Positions 25,098 to 64,000 of a stretch of DNA of 64,000 bases are shown in pieces. Under the pieces are notes generated by a model. The model ran no database searches. It was not told the DNA's origin and worked only from the letters and a program-made list of their open reading frames with translations. Every line of letters starts with the position of its first letter. Position 1 is the stretch's first letter. Position numbers and translations under genes: made by a program. Source of the DNA: Candidatus Gastranaerophilales bacterium (GTDB taxonomy: Bacteria > Bacillota > Clostridia > Lachnospirales > Lachnospiraceae); NCBI GenBank assembly GCA_023663225.1, contig JAMPHU010000004.1, positions 1-64,000 of the forward strand. The letters run 5' to 3'.

Positions 25098-25325
25098 GTG
25101 TCCGCGAGACGAAACGACTTGAAACAGCCTTGTGCAGATTGGAGCGTTTTCTTACAGCGCGGTTACGGCGACCAAGGGGAAACGCACACGGATGTGCGTT
25201 TCAGGTTTCATCGGGCACGGATGCCCGTTGAAACCGACCTGGAAACAGCAATACCCCCATTCCGCGCTGTTAGAAAACGCCCAATCGAAACACGACTGTT
25301 CCAAGTCATTTCGCCTCGCGGACAC
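25098..25325 (+). repeat. Palindromic repeat family B, copy B1 (twin GGA-loop hairpins)
   Basis: 228 bp closed by 30-bp imperfect inverted ends (25098-25127 and 25296-25325, starting GTGTCCGCGAG). Then comes a second long stem (TTGGAGCGTTTTCTTACAGC pairing with its inverse). Inside are two hairpins with the same six-base loop ACGGAT: GCGCAC-type stem and CGGGC/GCCCG stem. It sits between trpC and trpF, beginning about 20 nt after the trpC stop. Confidence 0.75.
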
Positions 25326-46943: not shown

Positions 46944-49499
46944 ATGGATCACCGGATCTCATCTCTCATCGACGCCGCCTCGCTTTCCTACGCCGCAGGT
47001 CATCTGGAACAAGCCAGACGGCAGGCGTCAGAAGCGCTTGTGCTGCTGACATTGCAACATCCTTCCCACAATATTTCCGAATCGGCAGATCCTTCTCTGA
47101 GCTTAACTGATCTCAATATCCTGACGCTGCTGCAATCCATCGCTGCCAGGCAGCATGATCTGGATGCCTATGAAAGCCATGAAGCCTCCATCAGAGAACT
47201 CACGCTGCAAATATTCGGCGCGGATTCCCGCTCCTATTACGCCGTGCATCTGCTCGATGCCTGTGAATGTTATCTGAGTGCCGGAAATATCGTTTCGGCG
47301 CAATGGTTTCTGGAAGATGCGATACGGATTCTGGAAGAGGAAAACGGCGCATGCGCATTGACCGATTTTCTTTATACTCTCCATCTCGCCAAACTGCATT
47401 TCCATATGGAGCAGTATTATGAATGTATCGACGAAGGTCTGCGCGCCAATTCCTTATGCCTTGCCGAACCCTTCATCCCGCCGGATGCGTCCGGCTTTCT
47501 GCGGCGCTACGCGGCGGATACCGTGCTGCTGGACAAGTATATCTACGCTAACCTGACGCTGATTGCCTGCGCTTACGGCAAGATCAATAACAGTGAAGAA
47601 GGCATTGCGATCCTCACCGAACTGCGAAAAACACCGCCGCAGGACTACTATCTGCGCGCCTCCATGGATCTGATTCTGGCGGAACTCTACACCAGAGAGG
47701 GAAGATATGGGGACGCCCGCTCCCTCTGTCAGAAGTATCTCACGCAGGATTTAAAGGACTCACCTGATATGCTCACCGCATTGGCGTCGCTCTCCTATGC
47801 GCTCTCACCCTCCTTTGACGCTCTCAGTCATTCCTTTTTTACCGCCGGAAATGACGGGGAGCTTCCGGCGTCCCTCTGCTACAGTCGGGATGCGCTTCCA
47901 ATCCTGGTGTATGACCACGGTCTGACTTTGATCGAAAAGGGGCAGTTTGACGAGGCGTTAAAGCTCTATGATAAGCTGGGAGACAAGGGACTTTCCTTAA
48001 GACTGCTCCTCCTCGCCCAAACCGGCAATTATAAATCCATCTCAGAATGTAAGAAAACCGCGGATCGTTACTATTACAGACAGATCGACATGCTTTTTCT
48101 CTATTACAATGAAAAATATGTGTACAACCATCTTTCCATGCTGGAGTATCATTTTTCCTTCTGCATGGACGCTTATCTGTCCTGCCACGAAGCGCTTGGC
48201 AGGGAAGCCATGACGCCGGAGAGCATCTATGATTTTCTGCTGAACACCAAATATATCTCCCTGGAAGCCTCTTACTTAAGCCGGAATTTCCTGACGCTGG
48301 ATGCGCTGAAAAACCGCGAAACCGTCACCGCAAAAGACATCATGCGGCTCATGCCGCCGGATACCGCGCTTCTGGAATTTTGCGTCGTCAGAACCTTCTC
48401 CACACAGGATTACTGCGCCTTTTTGGTAACAGGCAGGGAGGTTTCCTGCGTCCGTATTGCAGATTATCATTTAATAAATGAATGGATCGATGAATGGCGC
48501 AGACTCCTCACCGCTTCCGCCCATGCCATAAACGCCGATCTGGAGCAGGCAGCGGAGCTGGAAAGCAGGCAGCGCGCACTGGATACGAAGCTGCGCCGGG
48601 GCCTCTATCGCCCCATCAGGGAACTGCTCGCCGCTCTGCCGGAAGATTTGCACAGAAAGCGCCTGATCATTGCCCCCGCCGGAGCGTTGATACAATTCCC
48701 CTTTGACAGACTGTCCGTATCCGCCAAGGGGTATCTGGGAGATGATTATGAGATCACCTACATCAATACAGGCAAAGAGCTTCTGATGCAATCCGCCGAA
48801 AACCTGAGCGCGCCCCTTGCCCCATCATCGGGTGTGCCTTCTGTGAGTGATGAGACTGTTTTTAGGAACCCCCTTATCATAGGGAACCCTTCCACGACCG
48901 CCTATCCATCTCTGCCCTATGCCGAAAAGGAAGCTCATATGGTTGCAGAATACCTTAACACCGTGTGTTATACCGGAGAAAGCGCCGACATTTCCCTGTT
49001 TGACTTCCAGCCCCGCCATGCGCCCTCCCTGCTCCATATCGCGGTACACGGCGTCTTTTATCAGGAAGAAAATACGCTGTCCGATCTCCCTGACTGGAAC
49101 AACGCTTTCTCTGTCATGGAAAAGAGCGGTCTGGTGCTTGCCAATGACACGCTGCTCTCCTGCAGCCAAATATCCGCTATGAATCTTACGTCCGTCAAAC
49201 TGGCAGTTCTTTCCGCCTGTCAGAGCGGGCAGGGGCGTTTCCACGCGTCGGAGGGCGTTTACGGCTTAAGGCGCGCGCTGAAGCTGGCAGGCTGCCAGTC
49301 CATCATCGCTTCCCTCTGGCAGATCGATGACCGCTCCGGATATTATTTTATGCGGTTTTTATACGAGAATCTGGTGAAAACGCCCGAGAATCCAAGACTT
49401 GCCTTTTCTCTGGCCGTGGAAGCGCTGCGCAGTTATGAGGAAAATAATACCCGCCCGTTTGCAGAGCCTTATTTCTGGGCGGGGTATATTTTTATTTAA
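46944..49499 (+). CDS. TPR-CHAT protease (caspase/separase-like)
   Basis: 851 residues; AAGGAG 8 nt before the ATG. The N-terminal about 500 residues form TPR-like helix pairs (SLIDAASLSYAAGHLEQARR, AEPFIPPDASGFLRRYAAD, and others). The C-terminal CHAT domain (about 560-851) shows HIAVHG with the catalytic His at residue 702 and VLSACQSGQG with the catalytic Cys at 759, so the dyad is intact. AEPYFWAGYIFI closes it as in other CHAT proteins. Such proteases are activated by upstream NTPases and cleave a partner. Here two STAND genes precede it on the same strand, and the small 63-residue gene converges on its end. Confidence 0.9.
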   Translation: MDHRISSLIDAASLSYAAGHLEQARRQASEALVLLTLQHPSHNISESADPSLSLTDLNILTLLQSIAARQHDLDAYESHEASIRELTLQIFGADSRSYYAVHLLDACECYLSAGNIVSAQWFLEDAIRILEEENGACALTDFLYTLHLAKLHFHMEQYYECIDEGLRANSLCLAEPFIPPDASGFLRRYAADTVLLDKYIYANLTLIACAYGKINNSEEGIAILTELRKTPPQDYYLRASMDLILAELYTREGRYGDARSLCQKYLTQDLKDSPDMLTALASLSYALSPSFDALSHSFFTAGNDGELPASLCYSRDALPILVYDHGLTLIEKGQFDEALKLYDKLGDKGLSLRLLLLAQTGNYKSISECKKTADRYYYRQIDMLFLYYNEKYVYNHLSMLEYHFSFCMDAYLSCHEALGREAMTPESIYDFLLNTKYISLEASYLSRNFLTLDALKNRETVTAKDIMRLMPPDTALLEFCVVRTFSTQDYCAFLVTGREVSCVRIADYHLINEWIDEWRRLLTASAHAINADLEQAAELESRQRALDTKLRRGLYRPIRELLAALPEDLHRKRLIIAPAGALIQFPFDRLSVSAKGYLGDDYEITYINTGKELLMQSAENLSAPLAPSSGVPSVSDETVFRNPLIIGNPSTTAYPSLPYAEKEAHMVAEYLNTVCYTGESADISLFDFQPRHAPSLLHIAVHGVFYQEENTLSDLPDWNNAFSVMEKSGLVLANDTLLSCSQISAMNLTSVKLAVLSACQSGQGRFHASEGVYGLRRALKLAGCQSIIASLWQIDDRSGYYFMRFLYENLVKTPENPRLAFSLAVEALRSYEENNTRPFAEPYFWAGYIFI

Positions 49500-49891: not shown

Positions 49892-50530
49892 CTAACGCTC
49901 CAACGCACGTTGGGCTGACGCATGTCCCTGCTCCGCCGCTTTTCGGTACCACTCCGCCGCCTTGGCTTGATCCCGCTCTACTCCTTCGCCATTTTCATAC
50001 TTAACTCCCAGATTGTATTGCGCTTTCGCATATCCCTGCTCCGCAGCCTTTCGATACCACTCCGCCGCCTTGACTTTATCCTGCTCTACGCCTTTGCCAT
50101 TGCTATACCTCGCTCCCAGATTACACTGTGCCACCGCATATCCCTGCTCCGCAGACTTTCGGCACCACTCCACCGCAATGACTGCATCCTGCTCTACCCC
50201 TCCCTCGCCAAGGGCATACATAACTCCCAGATTGTTTTGCGCTTTCGCATCTCCCAGCACCGCAGCCTTCCGCCACCACTCCGCCGCGATGACCGTATTC
50301 TTCTCCACACGATTCCCTTCATAGTAAATCGTTCCCATCTGAGACACTGCCGGCGCATACACCTCCTCGGCAAATTCCTGCATCAGCCGCACACCCCTCT
50401 CATAATCGGGGGTTGCCAGAGCGCCATATGCCTCCTGATATAATTTCTCCGCTCGCGTCCACAAAAAGGTCTCGAATGTCGCCTCAATCCGCTTCAACTC
50501 CTCCTGCTGTTTCTTTGCTAACTTATCCAC
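49892..50530 (-). CDS. Sel1-repeat protein with GTG start
   Basis: About 212 residues from the GTG at 50530 (AGGAG 7 nt upstream; VDKLAKKQQEELKRIEATFE). The ATG at 50572 would overlap the previous gene and lacks a ribosome site. Five Sel1 units follow (AKAQNNLGVMYALGEGGVEQD, AVAQCNLGARYSNGKGVEQD, AKAQYNLGVKYENGEGVERD). Two of them are nearly identical, suggesting recent duplication. Alpha-solenoid scaffold, cytosolic. It is the last gene of the operon that starts with the coiled-coil protein, 32 nt after the lectin-domain gene. Confidence 0.85.
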   Translation of the reverse strand: MDKLAKKQQEELKRIEATFETFLWTRAEKLYQEAYGALATPDYERGVRLMQEFAEEVYAPAVSQMGTIYYEGNRVEKNTVIAAEWWRKAAVLGDAKAQNNLGVMYALGEGGVEQDAVIAVEWCRKSAEQGYAVAQCNLGARYSNGKGVEQDKVKAAEWYRKAAEQGYAKAQYNLGVKYENGEGVERDQAKAAEWYRKAAEQGHASAQRALER

Positions 50531-50562
50531 GCCACACTCTCCTTTACAGTCAAATAATGTCT

Positions 50563-53500
50563 TTAATCCCACTCACAGATAACCATGTCTCCGGCTTTAA
50601 AAGGCCCGTCATTCCATGTTGCATACGCATATCCGGAATAGAACATAATATAATTTTCGCCCGCCGAATCCTGGTCTCTATTATTATTGGGTTCCCCACG
50701 ATTCCAGTTTGTATAGGACATACTGCTCCCGTCTACCCATCTCCACTTTCCTTCCTCGGCGGCGTCCGACGCACCGAAGAAGGCCTCAGAATATCCCTGT
50801 TCTCTCAGATAGGAATATACGGCCATATTCTCCTCATAGGAATCGATGATCGCCAAATGTCCGCCGACCGATTCGCAATAGCTTTCCGCCTCTTCCCATG
50901 TCTCAAAATCATTGTAGAGATAGTAACTGCTGCCATTCCATCGAAACGCATCATCAGGAATATTTCTTACCAATAATTCCTCTTTTACATTTCCGGAAGC
51001 ATCATAGATGCTCCATTGATCGGGATCTGCTGCCATTCCCATCGTATTATCCGGTTCTGTTTTGGCTATTCTGGTAGTATACTTATCCTCACCGTCCCAT
51101 ATCAGGTCATAACTGTCATTCACATACGCTTCATCGGTTTGATAATAATAAGGCGCCCTGCTATCCCTTTCCGCCTCTTCTAACCAGTCCTTCCTTTCTA
51201 TCCTGCAGTAACCTGACTCCGGATCATAAGTTAAGACGTCGAAGCTGGTGCAGGGTTTAAAATAGTAGTATCCTCCCATCTGTCTATAATCACTGACCAT
51301 GGCTAAAATATTTTCTCCCATCGGCAAAATATATCGTCTGGTGTCCATCCAATTCCAATATACTTCACCCCCTGTCCAATCGCGAATCGTATAATAATAC
51401 TGCCCCTGCCATACGCCTGCAAATGGCGTAATATCCTCCGGCGCCGTGTCGGATACGTCGGAACCCGTTTTATAATAGATCTCACCATTTATGATATGAA
51501 TACCATCCCGGTCATCATTTAACTGCACTGGCCGGATATCAAAGTTTCCGTCCTCTCCCACGCTGATCAGATGACCGCTGCTTTCCGTTGCGATATCCAG
51601 GACGAGCAACTGCTTTACTCCATCCATCGTTACGGAGTAACACTTTTCATATTGCTTGTCGATCGTCAGCACCGATCTTTTGCCGTCCTCCGATGAACAG
51701 GTATACGTGCCGAGCAGCTCTCTGTCCGCGGCTCTATACATATGGTTTAACTCCGGTACAAAGGCGTTCTCTTCTGACAGTTCTACCCTTTCCAACAAAG
51801 TGATCTCGCCGAGCGGTCTGTCGCTCGTAAGTTTCAGCAAAAGACTATACTCTGACTCGCTTTCTTCTACCAGTTCGGCTTCCTGAATGATTATTTCCTC
51901 TCTATTTAACTTCACATCAAGACCATTGATCGGAACCGCCTGCCCGTCTAACATCTCCCATATGCCATTCTCGTCGCCTGCCCGCAGTTGCTGCAGCAGT
52001 TCACTGATATCAATATCGGTACAGTGCAGTTCCACTTCGATGTGACCTCCCGCCTGGCCGCTTGCCCTGCCTGCAAATGTATACAGGACGCCTCTGTGCT
52101 TCATCTCAAAAGAAAAATCGACGCTGCGAACGTCTCCGTTTGTTTTTTCCGCGCCAAACGATGCGTCTGTCAGGATATCGCACACCGGATCAAACCTTTC
52201 GGCGACCTCCTCCCCATAGGGTATCTCACGCCGGTCAAGCAGATTCTTAAGCTGAACCTCGTTTTCCAGAAGCGGCACTCCCTCGATCGCGAAGTTATAT
52301 AAATCGTCAAACACTTCACTCATATCCAGATTACAGCAATTCGATACCTTGCCCTGGATCAGCGTTTCAAGATCCACAATATTTCCTTCATTCCTGATCT
52401 CCTTTAAAGAACCGCAGTTTGCAAATAAATTGTTGCCCAAAGAAAGTGTGCTGCCGCGCAGTTCTACGACTTCCAGAGAAGTACAACCCGAAAAGGCAGA
52501 CTGCCCGATCTCGGTGACGCTTTCCGGTATCGCGATCTCCTTTAAAGAAGTACAGCCTGCAAAAGCGGACTGCCCGATCTCGGCGACGCCTTCCGACATC
52601 GTGACTTCCTCCAAAGAAGCGCAGCCCGAAAAGGCGAACCACCCGATCTCGGTGACGCTTTCCGGTATCTCAATGTGTGTCATTCCGGCTACACCCTCGA
52701 ATGTTCTGGGATAGATCGTTTTTACGAAACCTGCAATCTTATATTCCGAATAGTTCATCCTGCTGCCCAGATAATACTTTGTGCCATAATAGACAGGCGA
52801 CGCATACCTGATGTAAAATAGCAGCAGAACAACGACTACTGACGACAGTATGATAACTATTATGGAACGTTTTTTGGATCGTCTTCTGAAACGTCTTTTC
52901 TTTTCAAAATAGGACCGGACTTTTTCGAAAAGGAACCGGATGCCCTTGAAAAGGAGTGAGACTAACAGGAACGGCGACAGGAAGATATTCGCCAAAATTT
53001 CCGCTCTTCTCAACGTCTTTCGCTCTTTTTCCCTCTTTTCTTTTTCTTCCTCCTTTTTGCGCCGTTTCTCCGCTTCCTCATATTCCTTGTCGATCTCATG
53101 CATCCTGCTCTCTATCCGTTCCATCAGCGGATCTTTGCCCTCATAGCTTTTGAGCGTATCTTCCGCCTCCTTGAGGGCCCGCGCCAGGCGTTTACACGCT
53201 TCTATGACCCCGCCCAACTTCCCGCAGCTACAGTCGGCCTCCCGAATGGCGGACAGTTCCCGTCCCAGCTTCTCTGCCCGCTGTCTGTACTCTGACAGAT
53301 AATCCGACGTGACAGGACACTGTTGATCTCTGATGATGGAAACTACCTCAAAATATTTATCTCCGGCGGAAGGCGCCGCGCACTTGATCACAACCTTTTT
53401 CTCACCGTCATAGGATATGCCTTCAAAGCATCCGCTCTTTTTCACAATATTGATGACGGACGCTTCCTCCTTCTGATATTTTTCGCTAAATGCAGACAGC

Positions 53501-55068
53501 GCCCGCTCTAACGGTTCGAGCGAGTCGGCTCTGACGATTTCACAGGTTTTATTCCACTCCTCCTCAAGCCTCGTCCCTACGCACAATCCCGATACACGGT
53601 CGATCAATTCCAAACACTGTTCATAAGCGGACTCTCCTTTTGCAGATGTTCTGTCCCAGCCTCCGGAAAGTCCTTTCCTCAGAACAGAAAGCAGCACCAT
53701 TGATGCTTCTGCGAGAACGGAGACATCTTTTTGATTCTTTTGCCACTCTTTATCGACCTCCTCAAATAAAGCTTTCGCCTGATCCGGCTCCCCTGCGGGC
53801 AACAGATGCCAACCCAATGCAAGGAATATGATTTTCCCCTCTTTGTCCTCCTCATTCCATCCGGACGCCAGCCGTTTTTTGGCAAAACATGCCCGCGCAC
53901 GCTCCAGTCTGCCCATATAAGCCTGCTCATTTTTCAAATGCTGCCGAAAACATTCTATCCGATCTCCCACGGTCTTTAAAGACGATATCTGCTCCATATC
54001 CTCCTTCCGCATAAATCCGACGTCAACAGCGGCCATGGCCACTGACTTTAAAGCCGTTTCACACGTCAGCTCTTTTTGATTGATCGATATCTTACGCGCG
54101 ATCGCCGCAACGTTCTTTTCCAGAAAGGACTTTACTTCCTCCTCTTCCATGGGAAACCGCTCTAACAGACTGCCGTATGTCGTATCCACTGTCTCCGTCC
54201 CGGCAGATTCTCTATGAGGCAGCGCGGCGCTCAACTCCTGCCATCCCTCTTTCATCTCTGCGAATTTTTCCCGATATCTGCCCCCATCGACCTTTGCGCT
54301 CCAACTCTCAAAAGCGGCGCTGTATTCATCAGAGTCAAACAGCTCCCGAAAAAGCTGCTCATCCACGCCTTTGCACAGCTTCTCTCTCATCACCGGAGCC
54401 AATTCTTCCATGCTGGTATAGAAAACGTTATGATACCAAAAGCTCTCTTTTCCCTGAAGACTTAACGCCAGTTCCCCCAGGAATCTGCTTTTGGAATCGT
54501 CATCCGCCCGATAGAACTTCGCTTCCGCCTCTTGTATCTCCGGCACATAAGTAGAAAACACCCTGCATCTTGCCATATCCTCCACAAGCCTGCGGTTCCA
54601 ATGATCCGCATCGAATGGATCGGTGTTCCCTGCTACCTCCCATTTGCCGTCGGCAGACAGAGCCAAAAGCCATTTCCCAAACGCTTCAAAGGAATACAGC
54701 TTTGCCTCGTCATCCTCCGCGCGAACAAAGGGAATCCCGTTGAGCGCAGGCTCGATGTGGTGCAGGACCAACTGAAATACGGGATCGTCCTCACCATATT
54801 TTATCCTGTCAGGATCCCACAATCGCGCGTATGCTTCGCGGAAAAAATCAGCGGCGGCCGATAAGTCGGGCGATTGCCCATCCGCATCCTGCACATATTC
54901 TTCCCAGAATCCCTCCATGCCGCCCCTACGGAAAACAGACGCCGCAATATCCCAGTGATCGATAAAGGCATCGGCAAGACTCCTGCTGTCGGTATACTCT
55001 TTGCCCATGAAACGAAAAGGCTTTTTGTACTGATAGGTGCTCTGGTCTATTTGCTTGCTGTCTTTCAT
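50563..55068 (-). CDS. Membrane protein with BspA-type LRRs and C-terminal C-type lectin domain
   Basis: 1501 residues. The first about 600 residues are a soluble helical region of unknown type. A coiled coil (about 640-700; KEYEEAEKRRKKEEEKEKRE) and one or two hydrophobic helices (about 712-735; IIVIILSSVVVVLLLFYIRY near 760-780) follow. Four BspA-type leucine-rich repeats come next (about 810-920; IEIPESVTEIGWFAFSGC). A beta-rich middle precedes a C-type lectin-like domain (about 1370-1501; EEAESYCESVGGHLAIID, then WVDGSSMSYTNWNRGEPNNN). The N-part would be cytosolic and the LRR/lectin part outside. The EPN motif suggests mannose-type sugar binding. Starts 13 nt after the Sel1 gene. Confidence 0.8.
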   Translation of the reverse strand: MKDSKQIDQSTYQYKKPFRFMGKEYTDSRSLADAFIDHWDIAASVFRRGGMEGFWEEYVQDADGQSPDLSAAADFFREAYARLWDPDRIKYGEDDPVFQLVLHHIEPALNGIPFVRAEDDEAKLYSFEAFGKWLLALSADGKWEVAGNTDPFDADHWNRRLVEDMARCRVFSTYVPEIQEAEAKFYRADDDSKSRFLGELALSLQGKESFWYHNVFYTSMEELAPVMREKLCKGVDEQLFRELFDSDEYSAAFESWSAKVDGGRYREKFAEMKEGWQELSAALPHRESAGTETVDTTYGSLLERFPMEEEEVKSFLEKNVAAIARKISINQKELTCETALKSVAMAAVDVGFMRKEDMEQISSLKTVGDRIECFRQHLKNEQAYMGRLERARACFAKKRLASGWNEEDKEGKIIFLALGWHLLPAGEPDQAKALFEEVDKEWQKNQKDVSVLAEASMVLLSVLRKGLSGGWDRTSAKGESAYEQCLELIDRVSGLCVGTRLEEEWNKTCEIVRADSLEPLERALSAFSEKYQKEEASVINIVKKSGCFEGISYDGEKKVVIKCAAPSAGDKYFEVVSIIRDQQCPVTSDYLSEYRQRAEKLGRELSAIREADCSCGKLGGVIEACKRLARALKEAEDTLKSYEGKDPLMERIESRMHEIDKEYEEAEKRRKKEEEKEKREKERKTLRRAEILANIFLSPFLLVSLLFKGIRFLFEKVRSYFEKKRRFRRRSKKRSIIVIILSSVVVVLLLFYIRYASPVYYGTKYYLGSRMNYSEYKIAGFVKTIYPRTFEGVAGMTHIEIPESVTEIGWFAFSGCASLEEVTMSEGVAEIGQSAFAGCTSLKEIAIPESVTEIGQSAFSGCTSLEVVELRGSTLSLGNNLFANCGSLKEIRNEGNIVDLETLIQGKVSNCCNLDMSEVFDDLYNFAIEGVPLLENEVQLKNLLDRREIPYGEEVAERFDPVCDILTDASFGAEKTNGDVRSVDFSFEMKHRGVLYTFAGRASGQAGGHIEVELHCTDIDISELLQQLRAGDENGIWEMLDGQAVPINGLDVKLNREEIIIQEAELVEESESEYSLLLKLTSDRPLGEITLLERVELSEENAFVPELNHMYRAADRELLGTYTCSSEDGKRSVLTIDKQYEKCYSVTMDGVKQLLVLDIATESSGHLISVGEDGNFDIRPVQLNDDRDGIHIINGEIYYKTGSDVSDTAPEDITPFAGVWQGQYYYTIRDWTGGEVYWNWMDTRRYILPMGENILAMVSDYRQMGGYYYFKPCTSFDVLTYDPESGYCRIERKDWLEEAERDSRAPYYYQTDEAYVNDSYDLIWDGEDKYTTRIAKTEPDNTMGMAADPDQWSIYDASGNVKEELLVRNIPDDAFRWNGSSYYLYNDFETWEEAESYCESVGGHLAIIDSYEENMAVYSYLREQGYSEAFFGASDAAEEGKWRWVDGSSMSYTNWNRGEPNNNRDQDSAGENYIMFYSGYAYATWNDGPFKAGDMVICEWD

Positions 55069-55081
55069 TTTCTGTATTCTC

Positions 55082-56710
55082 CTATTCGGGTTTATGCTCC
55101 TTCAGATATGCTGCCGCCGCAGGATATCCATCCTCCGCCAACTGTTCGATCATATCCAACCCCTCTTTTTTTCTCTCCTGAACCGCAGAGGCAATACATT
55201 CTAGGGCCCTATTGTACCTGTTTTCCTGTCTCAACAGATTTTTCATCTCATCCGCCAGTTTTTCGCAGGTATCCTTCATGGTTCCTTTCGCGCCGTAGCG
55301 ATAATATTCCATCGCCTTTTCGTAGTCATGTGTGTTGCCGCGCCGGTCAACGGCGTATAAGTCTCCCAAATATTTATAGGCATCCATATTGCCCGCGTCA
55401 GCAGACTCCTTAAAAAATTCACTCGCATCGATGAAATTGCCTTCCCTATATTTTTTGAGGAGTCTGTCTCTTCCGAGTTTACTCCCCAGACCTGCCGCCT
55501 GACAATAATAGCCAAATGCTTCCACATCGTCCTTTCCCCGGTCTCCTTTCCATTTCAGGATCATGCATTTTATGTCCTCGTCCTGACCGGCATCATTGAT
55601 CTTTTCGTTTAGAAGCCTGTCGAGAGCCTCCCCGTCTCCGGCATTGGAAATGTCATCGTATCGTTCCAGGATTCTTTTGACGCCCGCATAATCTCCGGCT
55701 TCCAGCCAATAGCTTACCGCCTCCCGAAACCGCTTTTCCTCGCACAACACATCCCCGATCCAGTTTCTCGCCAGGCTTGCATGAGAACCTCCGGCCTCCA
55801 ACAGCGGCGCCAGTAACTCTTTGAGATAATCTACACTCTTGAACTTTTCTTCCCCAATCACAATGCCGCAGGCCGCATAACCGGTCAAACACCGCAAATA
55901 CTTGTCACCGCCCGGCCCCGCCTTCTCCATATAACATTGATAATATTCCATCGCTTTGCGCGAGTCTTCCGGCAGTTCACTCCTCCACTCCTCGGGATTT
56001 TCGCCTGACGCATAGGCCTGCGCCATTTCCCACATCGCTTTCACAGAACCAAGTTCGGCCGCCTTTTCCAGATATGCGAGCGCCTTTTCAACATCCCGCT
56101 CCACAAAATATCCGTTTTCTAACAGGATCGCCATATCATAATAGGTTCCGCCGGCTCCCTGTGCCATTGCCTTGCGGAGCAGACGGCGTTTTTTTAATGT
56201 GCCGGTTCGGTCACGCCAGCTTGAAATAACTGCCAGACGATAAAGGGCGTCCGCATTTCCCTTTTCCGCCTCTATACTCGCCTCCGCAAACAGTTTCTTC
56301 ACGGCTTCTATGCCGCCTTCCTCCTCCGCCCGGCTGCATGTATCAAAAAAAAACCAATCCTCCGGATTCACGCTCAGGCTGCGCTGCTCCGGTACATCCT
56401 CCCCGCGATACGCGTGCTCCGGTACATCCTCCTCGTGATATGCGTGCTCCCGCTCATCCTCCTCGCGATAGGCGCTCAGGCCGCTCATTTCCCTGCTTTT
56501 GATTTCCTCTACTCGGGTTTCCACCAATACGATCGCTTCCTGAACCTGTTGACGCTCCGTCTCAAGCTCCGCCTTCAATTTCTCGTCTCTTGCCATCGTG
56601 ATCTTGGTGCGCAGCTCGTCATCCTTCTCTTCCAGCGTCTCCTGCATTTCTTCCAGTTCCTCTGATGTCATCTCCGCAGAATCACGCAGTCTTTCCAATA
56701 ATTCTTCCAT
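55082..56710 (-). CDS. Coiled-coil and Sel1-repeat protein
   Basis: 542 residues. The N-terminal about 90 residues are a charged coiled coil (SEELEEMQETLEEKDDELRT). A linker with three acidic AYREEDE-type units (about 90-115) follows, then Sel1/TPR-like repeats from about 140 to the end (ADALYRLAVISSWRD, GTYYDMAILLENGYFVERD, SVKAMWEMAQAYASG, MDAYKYLGDLYAVD). No membrane segment. It lies 23 nt after the Hsp70-AAA gene and 13 nt before the lectin-domain gene, so it is probably a scaffold in the same complex. Function unknown. Confidence 0.8.
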   Translation of the reverse strand: MEELLERLRDSAEMTSEELEEMQETLEEKDDELRTKITMARDEKLKAELETERQQVQEAIVLVETRVEEIKSREMSGLSAYREEDEREHAYHEEDVPEHAYRGEDVPEQRSLSVNPEDWFFFDTCSRAEEEGGIEAVKKLFAEASIEAEKGNADALYRLAVISSWRDRTGTLKKRRLLRKAMAQGAGGTYYDMAILLENGYFVERDVEKALAYLEKAAELGSVKAMWEMAQAYASGENPEEWRSELPEDSRKAMEYYQCYMEKAGPGGDKYLRCLTGYAACGIVIGEEKFKSVDYLKELLAPLLEAGGSHASLARNWIGDVLCEEKRFREAVSYWLEAGDYAGVKRILERYDDISNAGDGEALDRLLNEKINDAGQDEDIKCMILKWKGDRGKDDVEAFGYYCQAAGLGSKLGRDRLLKKYREGNFIDASEFFKESADAGNMDAYKYLGDLYAVDRRGNTHDYEKAMEYYRYGAKGTMKDTCEKLADEMKNLLRQENRYNRALECIASAVQERKKEGLDMIEQLAEDGYPAAAAYLKEHKPE

Positions 56711-56733: not shown

Positions 56734-59700
56734 CTATTCTTCGCCCGCAATATCCGCTTTGCTGATCGTATAAAACTCTTCATCCGAAAGCGTCTCCAAG
56801 TCCTTTCCCTCAGACACTCTCAGGTTATGTCTGCTTATGACATCTTCAACACAGTTGCGGACGCCCCTCGCATTGCCGAAATCTCCGCCGTCTTCCCGGG
56901 CCTTATCCCTTTCCCTGCAGATATATTCCCTGACGACAGTCTCCAATCCGGTTTCCAGCCGATATTTTCTTTTCTCCACCATGCCGCAGAAAATCTGATA
57001 CATTTCATCGAGCGTATAATCTTCAAAGTACACCACTGTCCGCATCCGGCTCCTCAGTCCCGCGTTCCTGCTCATCAATTCTTCCATTTGGTCCGGATAA
57101 CCCGCCATAATGACCATCAGGTCATCCCTGTTATTCTCAATCGGCGCGATCAGCGTATCCAACGCCTCTTTGCCAAAGGAATCCTGTTCCCCCGCAACCA
57201 GCGCATATGCCTCGTCGATAAACAGCACGCCGCCCATCGCCTGCTCGACCAGCTCCGCCGTCTTGATCGCGGTCTGCCCCTGATAACCCGCCACCAGTTT
57301 GTTCCTGTTGACTTCCACAAACACATCGCCGTTTGGCAGGACGCCTTCCAGAGCCAAAATCTTGCCGATCAGCCTCGCCACTGTGGTTTTGCCCGTGCCC
57401 GCATTTCCCTCAAAGATCATATGTAAGCTGCCTGCAGAAACGGCTTCTCCTCTGTCTTTACTCATCTTCCTGGCGACCCGAAAATTCACCAGCATTTCTT
57501 TTACCTTTTTCTTGACGCTGCCAAGGCCGACCATGGCGTCCAATTCCGCCAGATAGTCCTCGACGGTTTTCTCCTGTTTCGCATCCGTGTTGTCAGTCAG
57601 ACTTTCCACATCCGTGCGGGTGATCTGCTGCAGCTCTCTGATATCCGCCTTTCTCTCCATAGCCGCGATACGTTCTGAGGCCGCGACATACAGTTTCTCG
57701 TAAAGGTTGCGCATTTCTCTGGCATTGCCGAAATCCCTTCCCCGCATTTTCCTCCTGATCAGCTCCATCACGGCGTCCTTCGCATCCTCATCCAGAAAAA
57801 ACTGATTCTTTTTCAGGATATACAAAAAAATCCGGTACAACTCTTCCTCGGTGTAATCCTCAAACAGCAGTTGATTCGGAAAACGCCCGTCCAGACCGCT
57901 GTCGTACTTCTTCAATTCTCGGATCCCGTCTTCGTAACCCGCCATAATGACCATCAGGTTATCTCTGTGATTTTCGATCAACGGGATCAGGGTGGCAAGC
58001 GCCGCTTTGCCATACTCGTCCTGCTCCCCTGTCACCAGCTTGTGCGCCTCGTCGATGAAGAGGACGCCTCCCATGGCACGGTCTACAGCGTCTTCCATAT
58101 TTTTTTCGGTTCCGCCCACAATGGTTGACACCAGATCCGATCTCTTGACTTCTATGAAAAGATTGCCGTCGGCAAGCAGATCCATCTTGCCGTATATTTT
58201 CCCGAGAAGCCTTGCAACCGTCGTCTTGCCGGTGCCCGGCGCTCCCAAAAACATGGTGTGGAGCGTAATAGCGCCCCCTTTGTCAATTCCTTCCTCTCTC
58301 CTTCTCTTTTGGAGTTTCAAAAAGTTGATTTTTTCTTCGACGGCTTTCTTTACTCCCTGTAATCCCGTCAAAGCGTTCAATTCATCCAGATAATCCTCAA
58401 GGGTCTTGTCCTGATCCGCCGAATTATCCATATAACGGTCAATATCTTCCCGCTTGATTGTACGCATCTTGTCTTTTTCATACGCTTCCGCTTCCACAAT
58501 CCGGAACGCCACCGCCTGTTTCAGTCCCTCATAGGTATTCCGGACGCCCCCCGCATTTTCATAGCCTTTCAAGCTGCGCCTCCGCCTGATCAACTGTTTC
58601 ACAGGCTCTACCGCATCCTCATCCAAAGCATATCCGCCCTCTTTTATCATATAGAGAAAGATTTCATACAACTCATCATCGCTGTAATCCTCGAAATGCA
58701 GCCTGTTATCCCTCGGAAAGCGTCGATCCATGCCCTGATTCACATTTATGAACTCATTCATTTCCTTCTCATATCCTGTCATGATGATCATGAAGCGATC
58801 CCGATAATCCCACGCGTACTTCATAAGCGTCGTCAACGCTTCCTCCCCAAAGGAATCGTTTCCCCCGTTTTGGGAATGAACCAGATCATATGCCTCATCC
58901 AAAAACAAGACGCCCCCGAGAGCCTCCTTCACCGCCTTCTCCACTTTGGGCGCTGTCTGCCCCGCATATTCAGCCACCAGATCCGCCCTTGTCACTTCGT
59001 GGAAGATATCGCTCCGAGGCAGGATACCCAGACTTCCGTATATCTTCCCGATCAGACGCGCCACCGTCGTTTTGCCGGTTCCGGGCGGCCCAAGCAGCAA
59101 GGTGTGTAAGGTGATCTCGTCATCCGGCGTCTCGCCTTCCCTGCGCAGCTTTTCACAGTACTGAAAATACGTTACTTTTCTCGCGACTTCCTCCTTCACC
59201 TTCCGCAGACCCGGGAGCCTTTGCAGCTTATCCAACAGTTCTTCCACGGTCTCTTCCTCGCTGTCCGTCAAAATGAAATCCTCTTCCCGCAATACCCGTT
59301 CCATGCCCGGGTTCTGACTGTATCGCGCCACTACATTCATATAGATATCCTTCCAAATATTTTGCAGAGAATGTATATTGGCAAAATTGCCCCTGACAGA
59401 TTCATTCTTGATCAGGCGAAAAAGTTTCATCTCCGCTTCAGGAGCCACGCGGTATCCATCTTTTTCTATGATGCCTTTCCCGATTTGAAACAATTCGTCC
59501 ATGGTATAGGTGGGTATTTCCAGATACGTCATATATTCAGCCGTGAGCTGCGGATACTTCTCCCGAATGGTTTCCATGGCGTCTTTTTCGCCCGTAAAGA
59601 TGTAAAACACATTCCTGCTGCGCACCGCGTCGTCCAGATAGGCGTCAATAAGAGTCCATATATTGTCGTTATCCCGTTTATTTTCCTGCTCCGAAGAATT

Positions 59701-61611
59701 TATCAGCTTTTCCGTATCTTGGATCAGCATGGTACATTTTTTCCCATCCTCATTCAGAAGCAGATTCAGATTATCCGGATCGCCCAGAAGCTGAACAGCG
59801 CTTATTTCAATGGGTTCCCTCTTGTCCGTATAGTGAAGGTCGTACAGAATCTCAGCCAGGATCCCCGCCAGCATCTTTTTCCCGCTCCCCTTCTCTCCGC
59901 CGATCAGGAAATTCCATTGGAAAACTTTCCCGCCGATCCCCTTTTTCCCCATCTCGTGACTCGTGTATAGGATGCTGATATCCTCTTTGATTTTTTTCAT
60001 GCCGACCACGCCGCGGAAATAATCGTTGACCGATTCTTTCACGATTCGGTCTGCACGCTTCGTCTTTTTCAGCTTATCAAAGAAGCCTATCTTACTTTTT
60101 TCGGGTTTTGCCGCCCCAAAGAGCAGTTCCGCGTCCGCCACGCGTTCTGACAGATCATGCACTTCCTCTTCCGACAGATTTGATAAACGCTTTAAGTGAT
60201 ATTCCTCTTTGATATTTGCGTCGGGAATATCCACATACACATGCAGCATTTGTTTTTCATCCAGCGCGATACCGATATTGACCAGAGTCCCTGCCGGAAA
60301 TCTGCCGGGGAGTTTAATATCGATCACACTCAACGGATTGACATACGCAAGTTCCCTGCTTTCCCCCTGCGTCACCGTGAGGGATATGCGGGACTGACCC
60401 TGGAACCGCGTCTGGCAGCGGTATTCCACTGTGGCAGGAATCTTGGAATTTGGCTCGATCAATACCTCATTATACTGCTCGTCGCCCTCATACAACAGAA
60501 CGCCGACGCCATGGGAGCAGACATCCTGAAAAGAAAGTTCCCGCGCTCCGACAGTCTGCGTACAAAGCCTGCCATACAGCGCTGCCCCGAGCGCTACCGC
60601 ATTATCCGTATCTTCGTCATAAAACAATTCTCTTTTAAATAATCTTTCCAACTGCTTTTTCACATAAGGAATCCGGCTCGAACCGCCTGTGATGAATACC
60701 CTGTCTATTTTTTCCGGTTTAAAACCCTTTCGCCTCATCATCATTTTGATGGTGCTCTCCGTCCCCTTATAGACCGGTTGGATCAGTCTCTCAAACTCCT
60801 CCCTTGTAATTACCACTTCCTTCCGTTCACCGTCAAGATTCACATAAATATATGCCTGCTCACATTCGCTCAGGGTTTTCTTGCAGTCCTCCGCCTCCAG
60901 AGCAATCTCGTTCCTCACACTGTCGTACTGTTTTTCTTCCAGATCCACCTGATACCTATCTCGGAATTTCTCGATTACATACTTAACGATCTCATCGTCA
61001 AAATAGACGCCGCCGACCGTATTGTCGCCCACCGTTGCCAGTACCTCGATTTCATTGCCGTTTACAGTCATCAATGTGGCGTCAAAGGTTCCTCCCCCCA
61101 GATCGTAAATCAGTATCGTTCCCCTGTCGATATGGGTTTTATGGCAAAAGTACAGCGCGGCGGCAGTCGGCTCGTTGATCATCCCCACTTCTGTCAGTCC
61201 GGCGGCACAGATGGCATCCTGCGTCGCCTTCCGCTGATTGTCCTGAAAATTTGCCGGAAAGGTCACTACGACTCCCGTGATCTGTTCCTGCAGCTTCTGT
61301 CCGGCATCCTGCGTCAGCTTTTTGAGAATATATGCGGAAAGCTCTTCGGGCCTGTATTCGGTATCCGTTTCCCGACTCCGAAAGAAACCCTTGATTCCCA
61401 TCTGCATTTTCATTCGGGAAAACACTTTCCCAAACCATTGAAATGCCCTCTTTTTAGCCGCTTCCCCGACAACCACTTTATTCTTGTCGATCATGACGAC
61501 TGACGGCGTCGCTTTGTGCCCTTCGGCGTTTGTCACGATCTGCGGCTCGCCATTTTCATCAAGATATGCCGCAGCCGAATAGGTCGTTCCCAGATCAATT
61601 CCCAATACCAT
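56734..61611 (-). CDS. Hsp70 fused to four AAA+ modules
   Basis: 1625 residues. Residues 1 to about 345 are an Hsp70 nucleotide-binding domain: MVLGIDLGTTYS, INEPTAAALYF, LIYDLGGGTFDATL, VFITGGSSRIPYV. A shortened substrate-binding beta region (about 350-480) follows. Four CbxX/SpoVK-type AAA+ modules come after it. The first (about 530-720) is degenerate (GEKGSGKK in place of GKT; FLIGGEKGSG). The second (about 790-1010), third (about 1075-1290) and fourth (about 1350-1570) have intact Walker A (GPPGTGKTT, GAPGTGKTT, GNAGTGKTT) and Walker B (LFLDEA, LFIDEA, LFIDEA). A chaperone-unfoldase in one chain is implied, probably cytosolic. Operon neighbours are the coiled-coil gene (13 nt) and a Sel1 gene (23 nt). 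I know no standard protein with this order. Confidence 0.88.
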   Translation of the reverse strand: MVLGIDLGTTYSAAAYLDENGEPQIVTNAEGHKATPSVVMIDKNKVVVGEAAKKRAFQWFGKVFSRMKMQMGIKGFFRSRETDTEYRPEELSAYILKKLTQDAGQKLQEQITGVVVTFPANFQDNQRKATQDAICAAGLTEVGMINEPTAAALYFCHKTHIDRGTILIYDLGGGTFDATLMTVNGNEIEVLATVGDNTVGGVYFDDEIVKYVIEKFRDRYQVDLEEKQYDSVRNEIALEAEDCKKTLSECEQAYIYVNLDGERKEVVITREEFERLIQPVYKGTESTIKMMMRRKGFKPEKIDRVFITGGSSRIPYVKKQLERLFKRELFYDEDTDNAVALGAALYGRLCTQTVGARELSFQDVCSHGVGVLLYEGDEQYNEVLIEPNSKIPATVEYRCQTRFQGQSRISLTVTQGESRELAYVNPLSVIDIKLPGRFPAGTLVNIGIALDEKQMLHVYVDIPDANIKEEYHLKRLSNLSEEEVHDLSERVADAELLFGAAKPEKSKIGFFDKLKKTKRADRIVKESVNDYFRGVVGMKKIKEDISILYTSHEMGKKGIGGKVFQWNFLIGGEKGSGKKMLAGILAEILYDLHYTDKREPIEISAVQLLGDPDNLNLLLNEDGKKCTMLIQDTEKLINSSEQENKRDNDNIWTLIDAYLDDAVRSRNVFYIFTGEKDAMETIREKYPQLTAEYMTYLEIPTYTMDELFQIGKGIIEKDGYRVAPEAEMKLFRLIKNESVRGNFANIHSLQNIWKDIYMNVVARYSQNPGMERVLREEDFILTDSEEETVEELLDKLQRLPGLRKVKEEVARKVTYFQYCEKLRREGETPDDEITLHTLLLGPPGTGKTTVARLIGKIYGSLGILPRSDIFHEVTRADLVAEYAGQTAPKVEKAVKEALGGVLFLDEAYDLVHSQNGGNDSFGEEALTTLMKYAWDYRDRFMIIMTGYEKEMNEFINVNQGMDRRFPRDNRLHFEDYSDDELYEIFLYMIKEGGYALDEDAVEPVKQLIRRRRSLKGYENAGGVRNTYEGLKQAVAFRIVEAEAYEKDKMRTIKREDIDRYMDNSADQDKTLEDYLDELNALTGLQGVKKAVEEKINFLKLQKRRREEGIDKGGAITLHTMFLGAPGTGKTTVARLLGKIYGKMDLLADGNLFIEVKRSDLVSTIVGGTEKNMEDAVDRAMGGVLFIDEAHKLVTGEQDEYGKAALATLIPLIENHRDNLMVIMAGYEDGIRELKKYDSGLDGRFPNQLLFEDYTEEELYRIFLYILKKNQFFLDEDAKDAVMELIRRKMRGRDFGNAREMRNLYEKLYVAASERIAAMERKADIRELQQITRTDVESLTDNTDAKQEKTVEDYLAELDAMVGLGSVKKKVKEMLVNFRVARKMSKDRGEAVSAGSLHMIFEGNAGTGKTTVARLIGKILALEGVLPNGDVFVEVNRNKLVAGYQGQTAIKTAELVEQAMGGVLFIDEAYALVAGEQDSFGKEALDTLIAPIENNRDDLMVIMAGYPDQMEELMSRNAGLRSRMRTVVYFEDYTLDEMYQIFCGMVEKRKYRLETGLETVVREYICRERDKAREDGGDFGNARGVRNCVEDVISRHNLRVSEGKDLETLSDEEFYTISKADIAGEE

Positions 61612-61624
61612 ATCTTTTTGCCTC

Positions 61625-62551
61625 TCAATCGCTGTAACATTTTACGCTTCCGTCGTCCCAGACCACACATACCGCCGTCAGATAGACTTCGACAACCAGC
61701 AAAGATTTACTCCAATTCTCACGATATACCTGATTACCTGTGGCCCACTGTTTCTTTTCCTGTTCTGTCTGGGACTGCACCAGATCAAGTAAGTCGGCCA
61801 ATGAGAAAAACGGCGTCCCCGGGCCAGAGATCACCCCTTGATTGATCAACGCCTCCTCCTTAAGAAAGGAATAGATAAATCCCAGACTCCTGCTGTACAT
61901 CGGCATTTCCTCGTCCAATGCCCTGTTCAGTTCTTCAAGCTCCTGCCGAATCTGCTCCATCTCTCTGTTGATTTCTTCTTCGATACGGGAAGTCTCAAGT
62001 GTCTGCTCCTGTTTCGCGGACGCCTCTTCCCTGACGTCCCACCAACCCGTCTCAGTTTCCTGCTCCGGTTCTGTCCGTTTTTCTTCCCTGACTTCCCACC
62101 AGGCTTTCCCAGCTTCCTCCTCCGGTTTTGTCGGGGGTACTGCCTCGGTTTTCCGCTCAGGTTTTGTCGGCGCTTTCCGCTCCTGTTTTACTGACGCTTC
62201 TTCCCTGACATTCCACCAAGCCTTCCCAGCTTCCTCTTCCGGCTCTGTCGGAGTTTCTTCCCTGACGTTACACAAGGCCTTCTCAGCTTCCTGCTCCGAT
62301 TTCGCGGACAGTTCTCTCCTGCGTGCCTCCAGTTCGCCTAACCTTTGGGTCATCTGTATACTTTTCTTAACCAGCTCTATATATTTCTTACTTCTTGGCT
62401 TTGACAACATCCGGAAAATTTCCTCTTCCTCTTTCGCCTGCTGCTGCCTCTGATGCAGCCGACTCATAGCCTTTGCGATATTGTCATCCTGCTTTTGGGC
62501 ATAAAGCGACTTTTGTTCACTGGCACGATAAGACTTTCTCTGTTGTTCCAT
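61625..62551 (-). CDS. Coiled-coil protein with WWxVREE repeats
   Basis: 308 residues from the ATG at 62551 (GGAAGG 8 nt upstream). N-terminal coiled coil (about 10-95, Gln/Glu/Lys-rich), then four imperfect units containing EEEAGKAWWNVREE or close variants (about 95-190) joined by Lys/Pro/Glu linkers. A second coiled coil (about 195-225) precedes a C-terminal folded part (YSRSLGFIYSFLKEEALINQ ... VYLTAVCVVWDDGSVKCY). No membrane helix. First gene of the minus-strand operon and 13 nt upstream of the Hsp70-AAA gene, so it may be its substrate or adaptor. No family recognised. Confidence 0.7.
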   Translation of the reverse strand: MEQQRKSYRASEQKSLYAQKQDDNIAKAMSRLHQRQQQAKEEEEIFRMLSKPRSKKYIELVKKSIQMTQRLGELEARRRELSAKSEQEAEKALCNVREETPTEPEEEAGKAWWNVREEASVKQERKAPTKPERKTEAVPPTKPEEEAGKAWWEVREEKRTEPEQETETGWWDVREEASAKQEQTLETSRIEEEINREMEQIRQELEELNRALDEEMPMYSRSLGFIYSFLKEEALINQGVISGPGTPFFSLADLLDLVQSQTEQEKKQWATGNQVYRENWSKSLLVVEVYLTAVCVVWDDGSVKCYSD

Positions 62552-62589
62552 CAACGTTTCCTTCCTTTACACGGTTCCACAATGTAACC

Positions 62590-62678: not shown

Positions 62679-62915
62679 GTGCGTACCCGCGGGATAAGAT
62701 GACTTGGAACAGCCGAGTTTCGATTGGGCGTTTTCTAACAGCGCGGAGCAAAATATTGCAACTTGCGGGTCGGTTTCAACGGGCATCCGTGCCCGGTGAA
62801 ACCTGAAAATGCACATCCATGTGCATTTTCCCCTGGGTGCCGTAATCGCGCTGTAAGAAAACGCTCCAATCTGCACAAGGCTGTTCCAAGTTATCTCATC
62901 CCGCGGGCACTCATG
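62679..62915 (-). repeat. Palindromic repeat family B, copy B2 (twin GGA-loop hairpins)
   Basis: About 237 bp, inverted relative to B1. Outer arms GTGCGTACCCGCGGGAT / inverse, the shared long stem, and two hairpins. Read on the minus strand these are ATGCAC-ATGGAT-GTGCAT and CGGGC-ACGGAT-GCCCG. The first stem differs from B1 (CGCAC/GTGCG) by compensatory changes. Confidence 0.75.
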
Positions 62916-63236: not shown

Positions 63237-63878
63237 TCACAACCACAGATATACCTCCAGCATCTCTCCCCTCACATCCCCATCCACTACAGCCACATAC
63301 TGTCCGCTCGTCTCGTCCCAGAGCGCTTCTTTCACAATCGGCTCCCCATCTTCCATGCGCAAAATCACCGTGATCTTACTGCATACCTCCGCCGTTCCTG
63401 TCCTATTTTCCTTCCCCATCTCACCCGAAATCCTAAGCAGCAGCTTATCCTCTGATTTTTCAAGCGTCACCTGCTGCCCACACTGTGGAGCCGCCCCCCT
63501 GACCGCGCCTGCACTCCTTCGCAGATCCGCCATAGAAAACGCAAAACGCTCTATATAACCGTCCCGAATCTGCCCGATCAACTCCGCCATCTTTTCCTGC
63601 TCCCGCATACGACTCAAATGCGCGATCAGAATATTCTTTCGGATTGCCTCTTCATACTCCAGCAGCTTCAGTCCTGCCGCCAACCCTTCTTCCTCACAGA
63701 CGCTCTCCGCAATCATCGCTCTATGCAGCCTCTCCTGACATACATCGCATGCCTGAATATGCTCCGCCGCCTCTTCCATCCAGAGCAGATAGTCTTCGGA
63801 CAGATCCGATGCATCTATATATTTCATGATTTCCTTCGCGGTCAGATGTTTGTCCCTCATATCACCCATATCCCTCAT
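63237..63878 (-). CDS. zf-HC2-like zinc-finger protein (anti-sigma-like), no membrane helix
   Basis: About 213 residues. The start is uncertain: ATGs lie at 63878, 63869 and 63860, with an AAGGA upstream. An N-terminal zinc-binding motif H-x3-C-x2-C (EHIQACDVCQERL) is typical of anti-sigma factors. A helical segment and a beta-rich C-terminal part (KLLLRISGEMG, GQYVAVVDGDVRGEMLEV) follow. There is no transmembrane segment, unlike most ECF anti-sigma factors, so it would be cytosolic. It overlaps closely with the upstream partial gene. A regulator of the neighbouring cluster is possible, but this is inference. Confidence 0.6.
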   Translation of the reverse strand: MRDMGDMRDKHLTAKEIMKYIDASDLSEDYLLWMEEAAEHIQACDVCQERLHRAMIAESVCEEEGLAAGLKLLEYEEAIRKNILIAHLSRMREQEKMAELIGQIRDGYIERFAFSMADLRRSAGAVRGAAPQCGQQVTLEKSEDKLLLRISGEMGKENRTGTAEVCSKITVILRMEDGEPIVKEALWDETSGQYVAVVDGDVRGEMLEVYLWL

Positions 63879-63883
63879 ATCCT

Positions 63884-64000
63884 TCACAGCGCCTCGCACA
63901 CTTCTTCCAACAGCTCTTCCCGCATCTTTTGGCGCAGCCTGAGGCTCCAGTTCTCAAAGTCCTTCACTTTAAAATGTTCGCCAAAAATCATATCGCTGAC
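63884..64000 (-). CDS. C-terminal end of an unidentified gene (runs off the window)
   Basis: A minus-strand frame entering from the right edge reads VSDMIFGEHFKVKDFENWSL, continues with LRQKMREELLEEVCEAL, and stops at 63884. It ends a few bases before the start of the zf-HC2-like gene, so the two are probably co-transcribed. The 38 visible residues are not enough to identify it; a sigma factor partner would fit the neighbour. Confidence 0.6.
   Translation of the reverse strand, partial: VSDMIFGEHFKVKDFENWSLRLRQKMREELLEEVCEAL

Follow-up and report, generated by a model that had tools for sequence, protein, structure and literature searches.

A protein that joins an Hsp70 without its helical lid to four AAA+ modules of the SpoVK/CbbX type is encoded in the window studied here, the first 64,000 nucleotides (nt), read on the forward strand, of contig JAMPHU010000004.1 in assembly GCA_023663225.1 of a Candidatus Gastranaerophilales bacterium (GTDB lineage Lachnospiraceae). 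The gene, at 56734-61611 on the reverse strand, runs from an ATG start through 1625 residues with zero internal stops, and in it two adjacent genes are naturally fused in frame, as observed in the sequence. A second fusion occurs in another species of the genus, and separate genes for the same Hsp70 and multi-AAA protein are found at 13 further loci, directly adjoining each other at 11 of them; thus the fusion unites parts that are already kept together. Since fusion of adjacent genes suggests physical partnership, this arrangement suggests that the Hsp70 and AAA+ parts belong to one machine. The reading that I favour, at about an even chance of being right, is that of a dedicated remodelling chaperone, in which the Hsp70 would capture a segment of a specific target for the AAA+ motors to pull, as part of a response to stress or conflict.

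Architecture of the fused protein

The original prediction, made from the letters of the window, described one chain with an Hsp70 nucleotide-binding domain (NBD) and four CbxX/SpoVK-type AAA+ units, three with intact Walker A and B motifs and one degenerate. Profile matches (PF00012 and TIGR02881) within the intact frame bear this out, as do the Walker B motifs, which read DEA in modules 2-4 and QD in module 1. PF00012 covers residues 2-490 (5e-93, 312.8 bits against a cut-off of 20.6). By Pfam and by alignment to the DnaK-like Hsp70 that the host genome encodes besides the fusion (L002, 34% identity), the NBD occupies approximately residues 1-358 (60538-61611, on the reverse strand like all parts of the gene) and the substrate-binding beta domain (SBD-beta) approximately residues 359-490 (60142-60537). 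The alignment places a stub of the lid start and a linker containing GFFDK (residues 509-513) at 60022-60141, and the Hsp70 sequence ends where the helical lid would start. K68, E147, D170 and T175, which I take to be the catalytic residues of Hsp70, are kept as in L002. The NBD motifs and SBD-beta place this part in the Hsp70 superfamily; it is not a DnaK equivalog, scoring 288.4 bits against a cut-off of 822.55 and lacking the lid. Its separate-gene relatives, at about 500 residues, likewise have no room for a lid.

The SpoVK model TIGR02881 matches four stretches of the fusion (5.5e-205), and the two other NCBIfam models used for clade assignment, TIGR03922 (EccA) and TIGR02880 (CbbX), match at 4e-176 and 1e-174. 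EccA1 and CbbX are the only solved sequences that match AAA2-AAA4 at E<=1e-8. With four modules and an Hsp70 in one chain, the protein is no SpoVK or CbbX equivalog proper, and the cut-offs are passed only by the summed score of the four modules. It also falls outside Hsp100/ClpB (Clp-type AAA+ with an M-domain), its best AAA+ profiles and solved sequences being those of SpoVK, EccA and CbbX, and no Clp family is found among the 25 of 32 Pfam matches listed. Judged by their sequences, the AAA+ modules belong in the SpoVK/CbbX/EccA clade rather than among the Hsp100 disaggregases. Described members of this clade are not known to carry more than one such module.

On a reading of its motifs, AAA1 (59242-60021) is degenerate: with the P-loop GEKGSGKK at residue 572 and QD at the Walker B position it has lost the Walker B DE and the P-loop Ser/Thr and kept the P-loop Lys, and when searched alone it still matches CbbX (4.5e-16) and SpoVK (3.7e-14). 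AAA2 (58414-59241; GPPGTGKT at 841), AAA3 (57577-58413; GAPGTGKT at 1123) and AAA4 (56737-57576; GNAGTGKT at 1402) all have Walker A and B, an Arg finger and, in sensor 2, a second Arg finger (NAGGVRN, NAREMRN and NARGVRN). The Asn upstream of the first Arg finger is present in AAA2 (NQGMDRR) and AAA4 (NAGLRSR) and missing from AAA3 (DSGLDGR). At the presumed pore position AAA2 and AAA4 have a Tyr, in CbbX presumably the pore residue, and AAA3 has an Ile. GY in sensor 1, present in AAA2, AAA3 and AAA4 and replaced by GE in AAA1, is a feature of the clade (PMC10659427).

A census of module states covered 14 multi-AAA proteins, leaving out G400 (gene split) and G007 (cut by the contig end). The first module is degenerate in ten of these, eight of which are unfused, so its degeneracy was not caused by the fusion, a correction to the original prediction of a fusion with a dead first AAA+. 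The P-loop of the degenerate module is intact in seven (G381, G380, G211, G273, G156, G622 and G361), reads GK-K in the window and G350, and has lost its Lys in G410; Walker B DE is found in none of the ten, with DD in G410 and DN in G622. Degenerate first modules may thus still bind ATP, and hydrolysis has probably been lost. I also considered a hidden first module without a P-loop in G108, G109, G800 and G831, and rejected it: their N-termini score at most 2.3 bits with a profile of five AAA1 modules, which finds the held-out modules of G273, G361, G156 and G622 at 138-254 bits. Each chain has two or three modules with both Walker motifs. An intact P-loop occurs in 35 modules and is accompanied by a Walker B DEA in 33. 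At the presumed pore-loop position an aromatic residue or His is present in 31 of the 33, and Ile in the third module of the window and in one module of G156.

Integrity of the join

That assembly or sequencing error joined two genes, the outcome by which the original prediction said it could be refuted, is very improbable. Such an error might be suspected from the source, a contig of a single metagenome-assembled genome (94.5% complete, 4.07% contaminated), and from the 13 loci that keep the genes separate. Against it, the frame is open, and the junction shows no clear step in GC content or in GC content at third codon positions (GC3; 0.57, 0.66 and 0.54 at residues 401-500, 501-600 and 601-700). 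There is no long repeat either, the longest word of residues 480-600 that recurs in the window being 14 bases. The junction is also more than the loss of a stop: from residue 500 to the first P-loop the fusion has 72 residues, standing in for the 176-324 found ahead of the first P-loop in 12 separate AAA proteins. The gene sits in a compact operon, with spacers of 13 nt and 23 nt on its two sides, and the second fusion argues for a real join.

Distribution and origin of the fusion

An alignment of the Hsp70 part with four relatives served to seek others in genome samples of the class (391), the family (299), the genus (138) and the phylum (249). The samples overlap, the E-value limits differ and some candidates were scored per genome, so counts hold among the matches listed. 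This Hsp70 is present in at least 7 of the 138 genus genomes (E<=1e-122) and at least 7 of the 299 in the family sample (E<=1e-125), counts that both take in the window's own genome. Three more matches, at 626, 483 and 476 bits, stand apart in the class sample, where the next one scores 425, and at least two more genomes of the phylum sample (G1054 and G888) pass 1e-128. When the whole fusion served as query, most of what came back were other Hsp70 and AAA genes.

Fifteen loci hold both parts with a readable junction; in G007 the junction is cut by a contig end. The original prediction had proposed a search for the same architecture elsewhere, and this search was rewarded: besides the window (G000), G410 has a fused frame of 1655 residues (L188), which excludes a one-off architecture. 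The separate genes are direct neighbours in G380, G381, G350, G211, G273, G156, G108, G109, G622, G361 and G400, and flank a TPR gene encoding a J-like domain in G800 and G831. The multi-AAA gene of G400 consists of two overlapping frames (L189 2953-5936, forward strand), a frameshift either in the gene or in the assembly. A related Hsp70 occurs with the multi-AAA gene absent from the fetched stretch in G774, G468, G1054 and G888; G1054 has two lidless Hsp70 genes close together (L191 6685-10498, forward strand).

The fusion likely arose twice, though this is not proven. In the Hsp70 tree the window groups with G380 and G381 (support 99/98) and G410 falls in a different supported group (96/93), a placement unchanged when the partial G007 row is added, and a tree constrained to unite the two fused rows is worse by 28 log-likelihood units (approximately unbiased test, p 0.001). 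Arguing otherwise are a GFFxK motif that both fusion linkers share (at 509 in the window and 522 in G410) and none of the 12 separate AAA proteins has, and the stretch before the first P-loop, which at about 124 residues is short in G410 as well. One pattern scan each, of a kind that finds close relatives only, gave three loci in public genome contigs, none with the fusion, and no match in viral contigs. Plasmids gave partial matches in 526 of 72,556 records, none reaching 80% coverage in one place.

Operon partners and the wider island

The fusion lies between two partner genes on its own strand. CC309, a coiled-coil-like protein (61625-62554), is encoded 13 nt upstream; homologues at 23-25% identity adjoin the Hsp70 in G007, G380 and G381, and its C-terminal part weakly matches small genes in G350 and G211 (35-36 bits) and in G273 (30 bits, 18 residues). 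Sel542, a Sel1/TPR-type protein (55082-56710), is encoded 23 nt downstream. I do not claim this partner as a degenerate J-domain protein, given that ten partner N-termini, including the window's, do not match the DnaJ profile (hhalign probability 1.5%). Elsewhere the partners of G800 and G468 reach the DnaJ Pfam cut-off, that of G831 stays below it (24.5 against 27.8 bits), and HPD is absent from the first two. J-like TPR proteins without HPD stand in or near lidless Hsp70 loci at L166 9873-11150, L165 8539-9714 and L168 11486-12469.

Further along the same strand, a 1501-residue protein (50563-55068) has a hydrophobic stretch, recognized by eye, ahead of a BspA-type leucine-rich repeat (LRR) region that starts at residue 783, and a C-type lectin domain; its residues 5-113 recur in the G380 locus (39%). 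The end of its gene is overlapped by 10 nt by the gene of the Sel1-repeat protein Sel226 (49892-50572, reverse strand). On the opposite strand to the operon lies a TPR-CHAT caspase-like protease (46944-49499, forward strand; PF12770, 8.5e-50), with the CHAT His motif (HIAVHG at 698) and the Cys of SACQSG. On the other side of the fusion, the reverse strand encodes an anti-sigma-like protein (63237-63899), so called from its position and an HxxxCxxC stretch in the absence of a Pfam match, and the window takes in the end (63884-64000) of a sigma-70-region-2-like gene (contig 63884-64696) whose PF04542 score of 22.0 bits is below the cut-off of 24. The G380 locus likewise has a TPR-CHAT protease beside sigma and anti-sigma-like genes, and the window's three proteins align with their G380 counterparts at 36% (CHAT, over 857 positions), 43% (sigma) and 28% (anti-sigma-like). 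Among 62 genus genomes, made up of the 7 carriers and 55 more, the CHAT (E<=1e-20) and sigma (E<=1e-8) families were each found in two, those of the window and G380.

Outside the window the same strand continues with a 118-residue gene (contig 65178-65534), a VirD4/TraG-like ATPase (contig 65570-67402; PF02534, 8e-38) and a 267-residue protein (contig 67371-68174), which I do not count among dead AAA+ modules, as hhalign gives a probability of 3% and NCBIfam no match. The usual P-loop form is GSGKT; the VirD4-like protein has GSKKT, as does that of G007, and its Pfam match begins at residue 25. An orphan VirD4-like ATPase is present in the operon of four genomes, the window's, G007, G381 and G380, and the order 267-residue-type gene, VirD4-like gene, coiled-coil gene and Hsp70 recurs in the last three. 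G007 and G381 have a small extra frame ahead of the coiled-coil gene, and in the window the 118-residue gene and the sigma/anti-sigma-like pair are inserted between the VirD4-like and coiled-coil genes; a C-terminal stretch of the VirD4-like protein of G007 and G381 weakly resembles the 118-residue gene (33-35 bits). Other fetched stretches (L122-L130) have VirD4-like relatives at about 40% identity with no Hsp70-AAA genes as neighbours. This orphan VirD4-like subfamily is also met close to a TIR-Sel1 gene and one that is weakly sigma-like (L125 11775-12725, 13649-15286 and 18563-19798, reverse strand), and close to a gene with a start that by eye is DUF4062-like (L123 12506-14470 and 16957-18078, reverse strand), a hint that conflict loci linked to VirD4 form a wider family.

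Near the end of the operon, two forward-strand genes (36019-39000 and 41498-46141) with DUF4062-like, STAND-type NTPase and TPR matches look like NLR-like conflict genes; the DUF4062 match of the former (22.3 bits) is below its cut-off of 24.7. A dispersed repeat occurs at 25120-25145 (forward) and 62863-62888 (reverse), two matches with at most three mismatches where none is expected; one copy lies in a 682-nt spacer inside the operon, and a similar translated stretch is found near the contig end (L038 18911-19207). An N6-adenine methylase with a TaqI-like specificity domain (L038 9506-11293, reverse strand) stands beside small P-loop genes and genes without an assigned kind, possibly a restriction-like module. 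A PADLOC scan of the operon proteins recognized no known defence system: the matches of the fusion are to AAA models and partial, the best being IetA (75.5 bits, 1.2e-21), mad8 is matched weakly by the VirD4-like protein (1e-7), and the 542-residue, 1501-residue, CC309, 267-residue and sigma-like proteins have no match.

A dedicated remodelling chaperone and its alternatives

In the reading that I favour, the lidless Hsp70 and the tandem SpoVK/CbbX-type AAA+ protein would be the core pair in a chaperone gene set that recurs from locus to locus and gives the impression of being Clostridia-type. The NBD and SBD-beta would bind one dedicated target at a segment that it exposes; without the lid the binding would be weak, quickly made and released, and followed by hand-over. 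AAA1, probably hydrolysis-dead and placed between capture and motor, would serve as a fixed adaptor or nucleotide-sensing platform. AAA2-AAA4, whose motifs equip them for it, would hydrolyse ATP and pull the segment via the pore loops of AAA2 and AAA4, and the target would be remodelled, activated or taken apart, the Sel1/TPR and coiled-coil partners choosing it. Threading by AAA2-AAA4 is plausible because modules with both Walker motifs nearly always keep an aromatic residue or His at the presumed pore position. The original prediction of capture coupled to threading survives as far as threading goes; the disaggregase part is less likely, for these modules belong to the clade of SpoVK, CbbX and EccA. 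A dedicated chaperone is favoured because the studied clade members have narrow targets, CbbX acting on Rubisco, EccA on type VII substrates and SpoVK on MurG (PMC10659427), and diverse N-terminal domains may recruit substrate in this clade (PMC10659427). In the window and G380 the target would probably come from the linked module, with the CHAT protease, the sigma/anti-sigma-like pair, the membrane protein and the VirD4-like ATPase as the first candidates. The two genus genomes with CHAT and sigma families are both carriers and have them at the locus.

Several observations weigh against this reading. AAA3 lacks the pore Tyr. No HPD that might trigger ATP hydrolysis by the Hsp70 is found in the first 60 residues of the four window operon proteins checked (Sel542, Sel226, CC309 and the LRR/lectin protein). 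The CHAT/sigma link consists of two genomes: neither family is found in the other five genus carriers, namely G381 and G007 (77% and 59% complete, with contigs that end early) and G410, G400 and G361 (77%, 86% and 99% complete). Finally, no VirD4-, CHAT- or sigma-like gene is present in the fetched stretches of six other family-level and three class-level loci. CHAT, sigma and VirD4 thus mark a genus-level variant outside the core gene set, and given this last absence the target may differ between lineages.

The linked genes could also be read as a conflict switch in immunity or regulated cell death, in which the machine keeps the TPR-CHAT protease or an anti-sigma complex inactive until Hsp70, LRR or Sel1 sensors capture a signal of an invader or of damage, and then releases it. 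CHAT and DUF4062-STAND genes and a sigma/anti-sigma-like pair do lie beside or in the operon, CHAT and sigma co-occur in the two genus genomes, a VirD4-like relative in G081 has nearby a TIR-Sel1 gene and one with weak likeness to sigma (22%, 45 bits), and there is precedent in the TPR-CHAT protease Csx29, which cleaves a sigma-factor inhibitor (PMC10028731), and in the Hsp70s of other predicted NTPase conflict systems (PMC7159879). Nevertheless I regard this switch as unlikely: none of the nine flanking proteins scanned outside G380, which include a chemotaxis receptor, an Hsp90, an ABC transporter and a transposase, has CHAT, TIR or DUF4062, the PADLOC matches are partial or weak where they exist at all, and the viral-contig scan was empty. 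A new kind of molecular switch is improbable as well; here the covalent Hsp70-AAA+ machine would directly remodel the CHAT protease or its anti-sigma-like partner, and capture of an abnormal protein by the Hsp70 would trigger proteolysis and a sigma regulon. In such a switch the tandem modules, with two or three active per chain, both divisors of six, might build one side-by-side ring and not stacked rings.

A general covalent disaggregase, whose Hsp70 would feed aggregated proteins straight into an AAA+ threading motor and so replace DnaK-ClpB, is improbable and less likely than the dedicated remodelling chaperone. One chain does hold an Hsp70 and AAA+ modules with pore loops, and direct contact with Hsp70 recruits and activates ClpB (PMC4436881); however, the modules are of the CbbX/SpoVK/EccA clade and not Hsp100, the genome already has a DnaK-like Hsp70, carriers are few for a housekeeping disaggregase (the seven of 138 genus and seven of 299 family-sample genomes among the matches listed), and the locus is linked to sigma-, CHAT- and VirD4-like genes. 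Quite improbable, too, is a secretion or surface-assembly chaperone, an EccA-like AAA+ with Hsp70 that would supply an export route using the orphan VirD4-like ATPase and ending in surface LRR/lectin proteins. The ATPase in four operons, the EccA-like modules and the hydrophobic stretch of the operon LRR/lectin protein fit such a route, but the ATPase has its GSKKT P-loop and a Pfam match that leaves little room for an N-terminal membrane anchor, it is missing from the fetched family- and class-level loci, and Pfam scans of the operon genes gave no other family of type IV secretion systems and no WXG100 family.

The fused protein matters for what it makes accessible. Hsp70 and AAA+ motors usually meet in passing, as DnaK and ClpB do, and a natural fusion fixes their stoichiometry at 1:1; together with the second fusion in a related species it makes the hand-over from Hsp70 to AAA+ testable in one purified chain, with the separate-gene relatives as a ready control pair. 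To direct a motor of this clade by an Hsp70, with a degenerate module built in, would be new, because each studied member serves one target or context. The CHAT protease and the sigma-like gene linked to the fusion offer a concrete place to seek the target.

Comparison with known systems

All four fusion modules match the models of the SpoVK/CbbX/EccA clade, and AAA2-AAA4 share its GY sensor 1 and sensor-2 Arg; unlike the clade, the fusion has four tandem modules, one of them degenerate, and an N-terminal Hsp70 where EccA has TPRs ahead of its module (PMC10659427). Like the DnaK-ClpB bichaperone, the fusion would set an Hsp70 to work with an AAA+ pulling motor, but DnaK and ClpB are two separate proteins and the AAA+ of the latter is of the Hsp100 type with an M-domain, a different clade (PMC4436881). 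The fusion shares with DnaK-type Hsp70s the NBD, the SBD-beta and the catalytic residues, and differs in lacking the lid and in the AAA+ motors that follow.

McrB is of the AAA+ type. The Hsp70 NBD/SBD has already been reported fused to McrB GTPases (PMC11090510), and the original prediction, which noted that known chaperone systems keep Hsp70 and AAA+ disaggregases separate, as is true of DnaK-ClpB (PMC4436881), needs this addition. These fusions and CnuD/CnuCD of the CoCoNuT type IV restriction systems resemble the present one in that an Hsp70 is covalently joined to an AAA+-type NTPase or partner, and also occurs as a separate gene, and one CoCoNuT extension has tandem SpoVK-family ATPases with a single active domain (PMC11090510). 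In contrast, the partner fused there is a McrB GTPase or McrC homologue and here a tandem SpoVK/CbbX motor, and the Walker A-like motif of that Hsp70 is degenerate where the fusion Hsp70 keeps its catalytic residues (PMC11090510). Pfam scans of the operon proteins found neither McrB or McrC nor any GTPase, those of the GAP1-N2 and DO types included, which sets the locus apart from the GTPase-centred HSP70 conflict systems (PMC7159879). The case of Csx29 (PMC10028731) is similar in that a TPR-CHAT protease has a sigma-like factor and a candidate inhibitor of it encoded alongside, but here the link is one of gene neighbourhood, and the Pfam scans of the island genes found no CRISPR family. No description of a lidless Hsp70 with a tandem SpoVK/CbbX motor was found in the open-access literature, among the matches listed, so the machine may be called undescribed as first suggested, but it is no singular one, the architecture recurring in the G410 fusion and in the 13 separate-gene loci. 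The new part is the combination of Hsp70 with a tandem SpoVK/CbbX motor; the fusion of an Hsp70 to an AAA+-type protein as such is already known from McrB.

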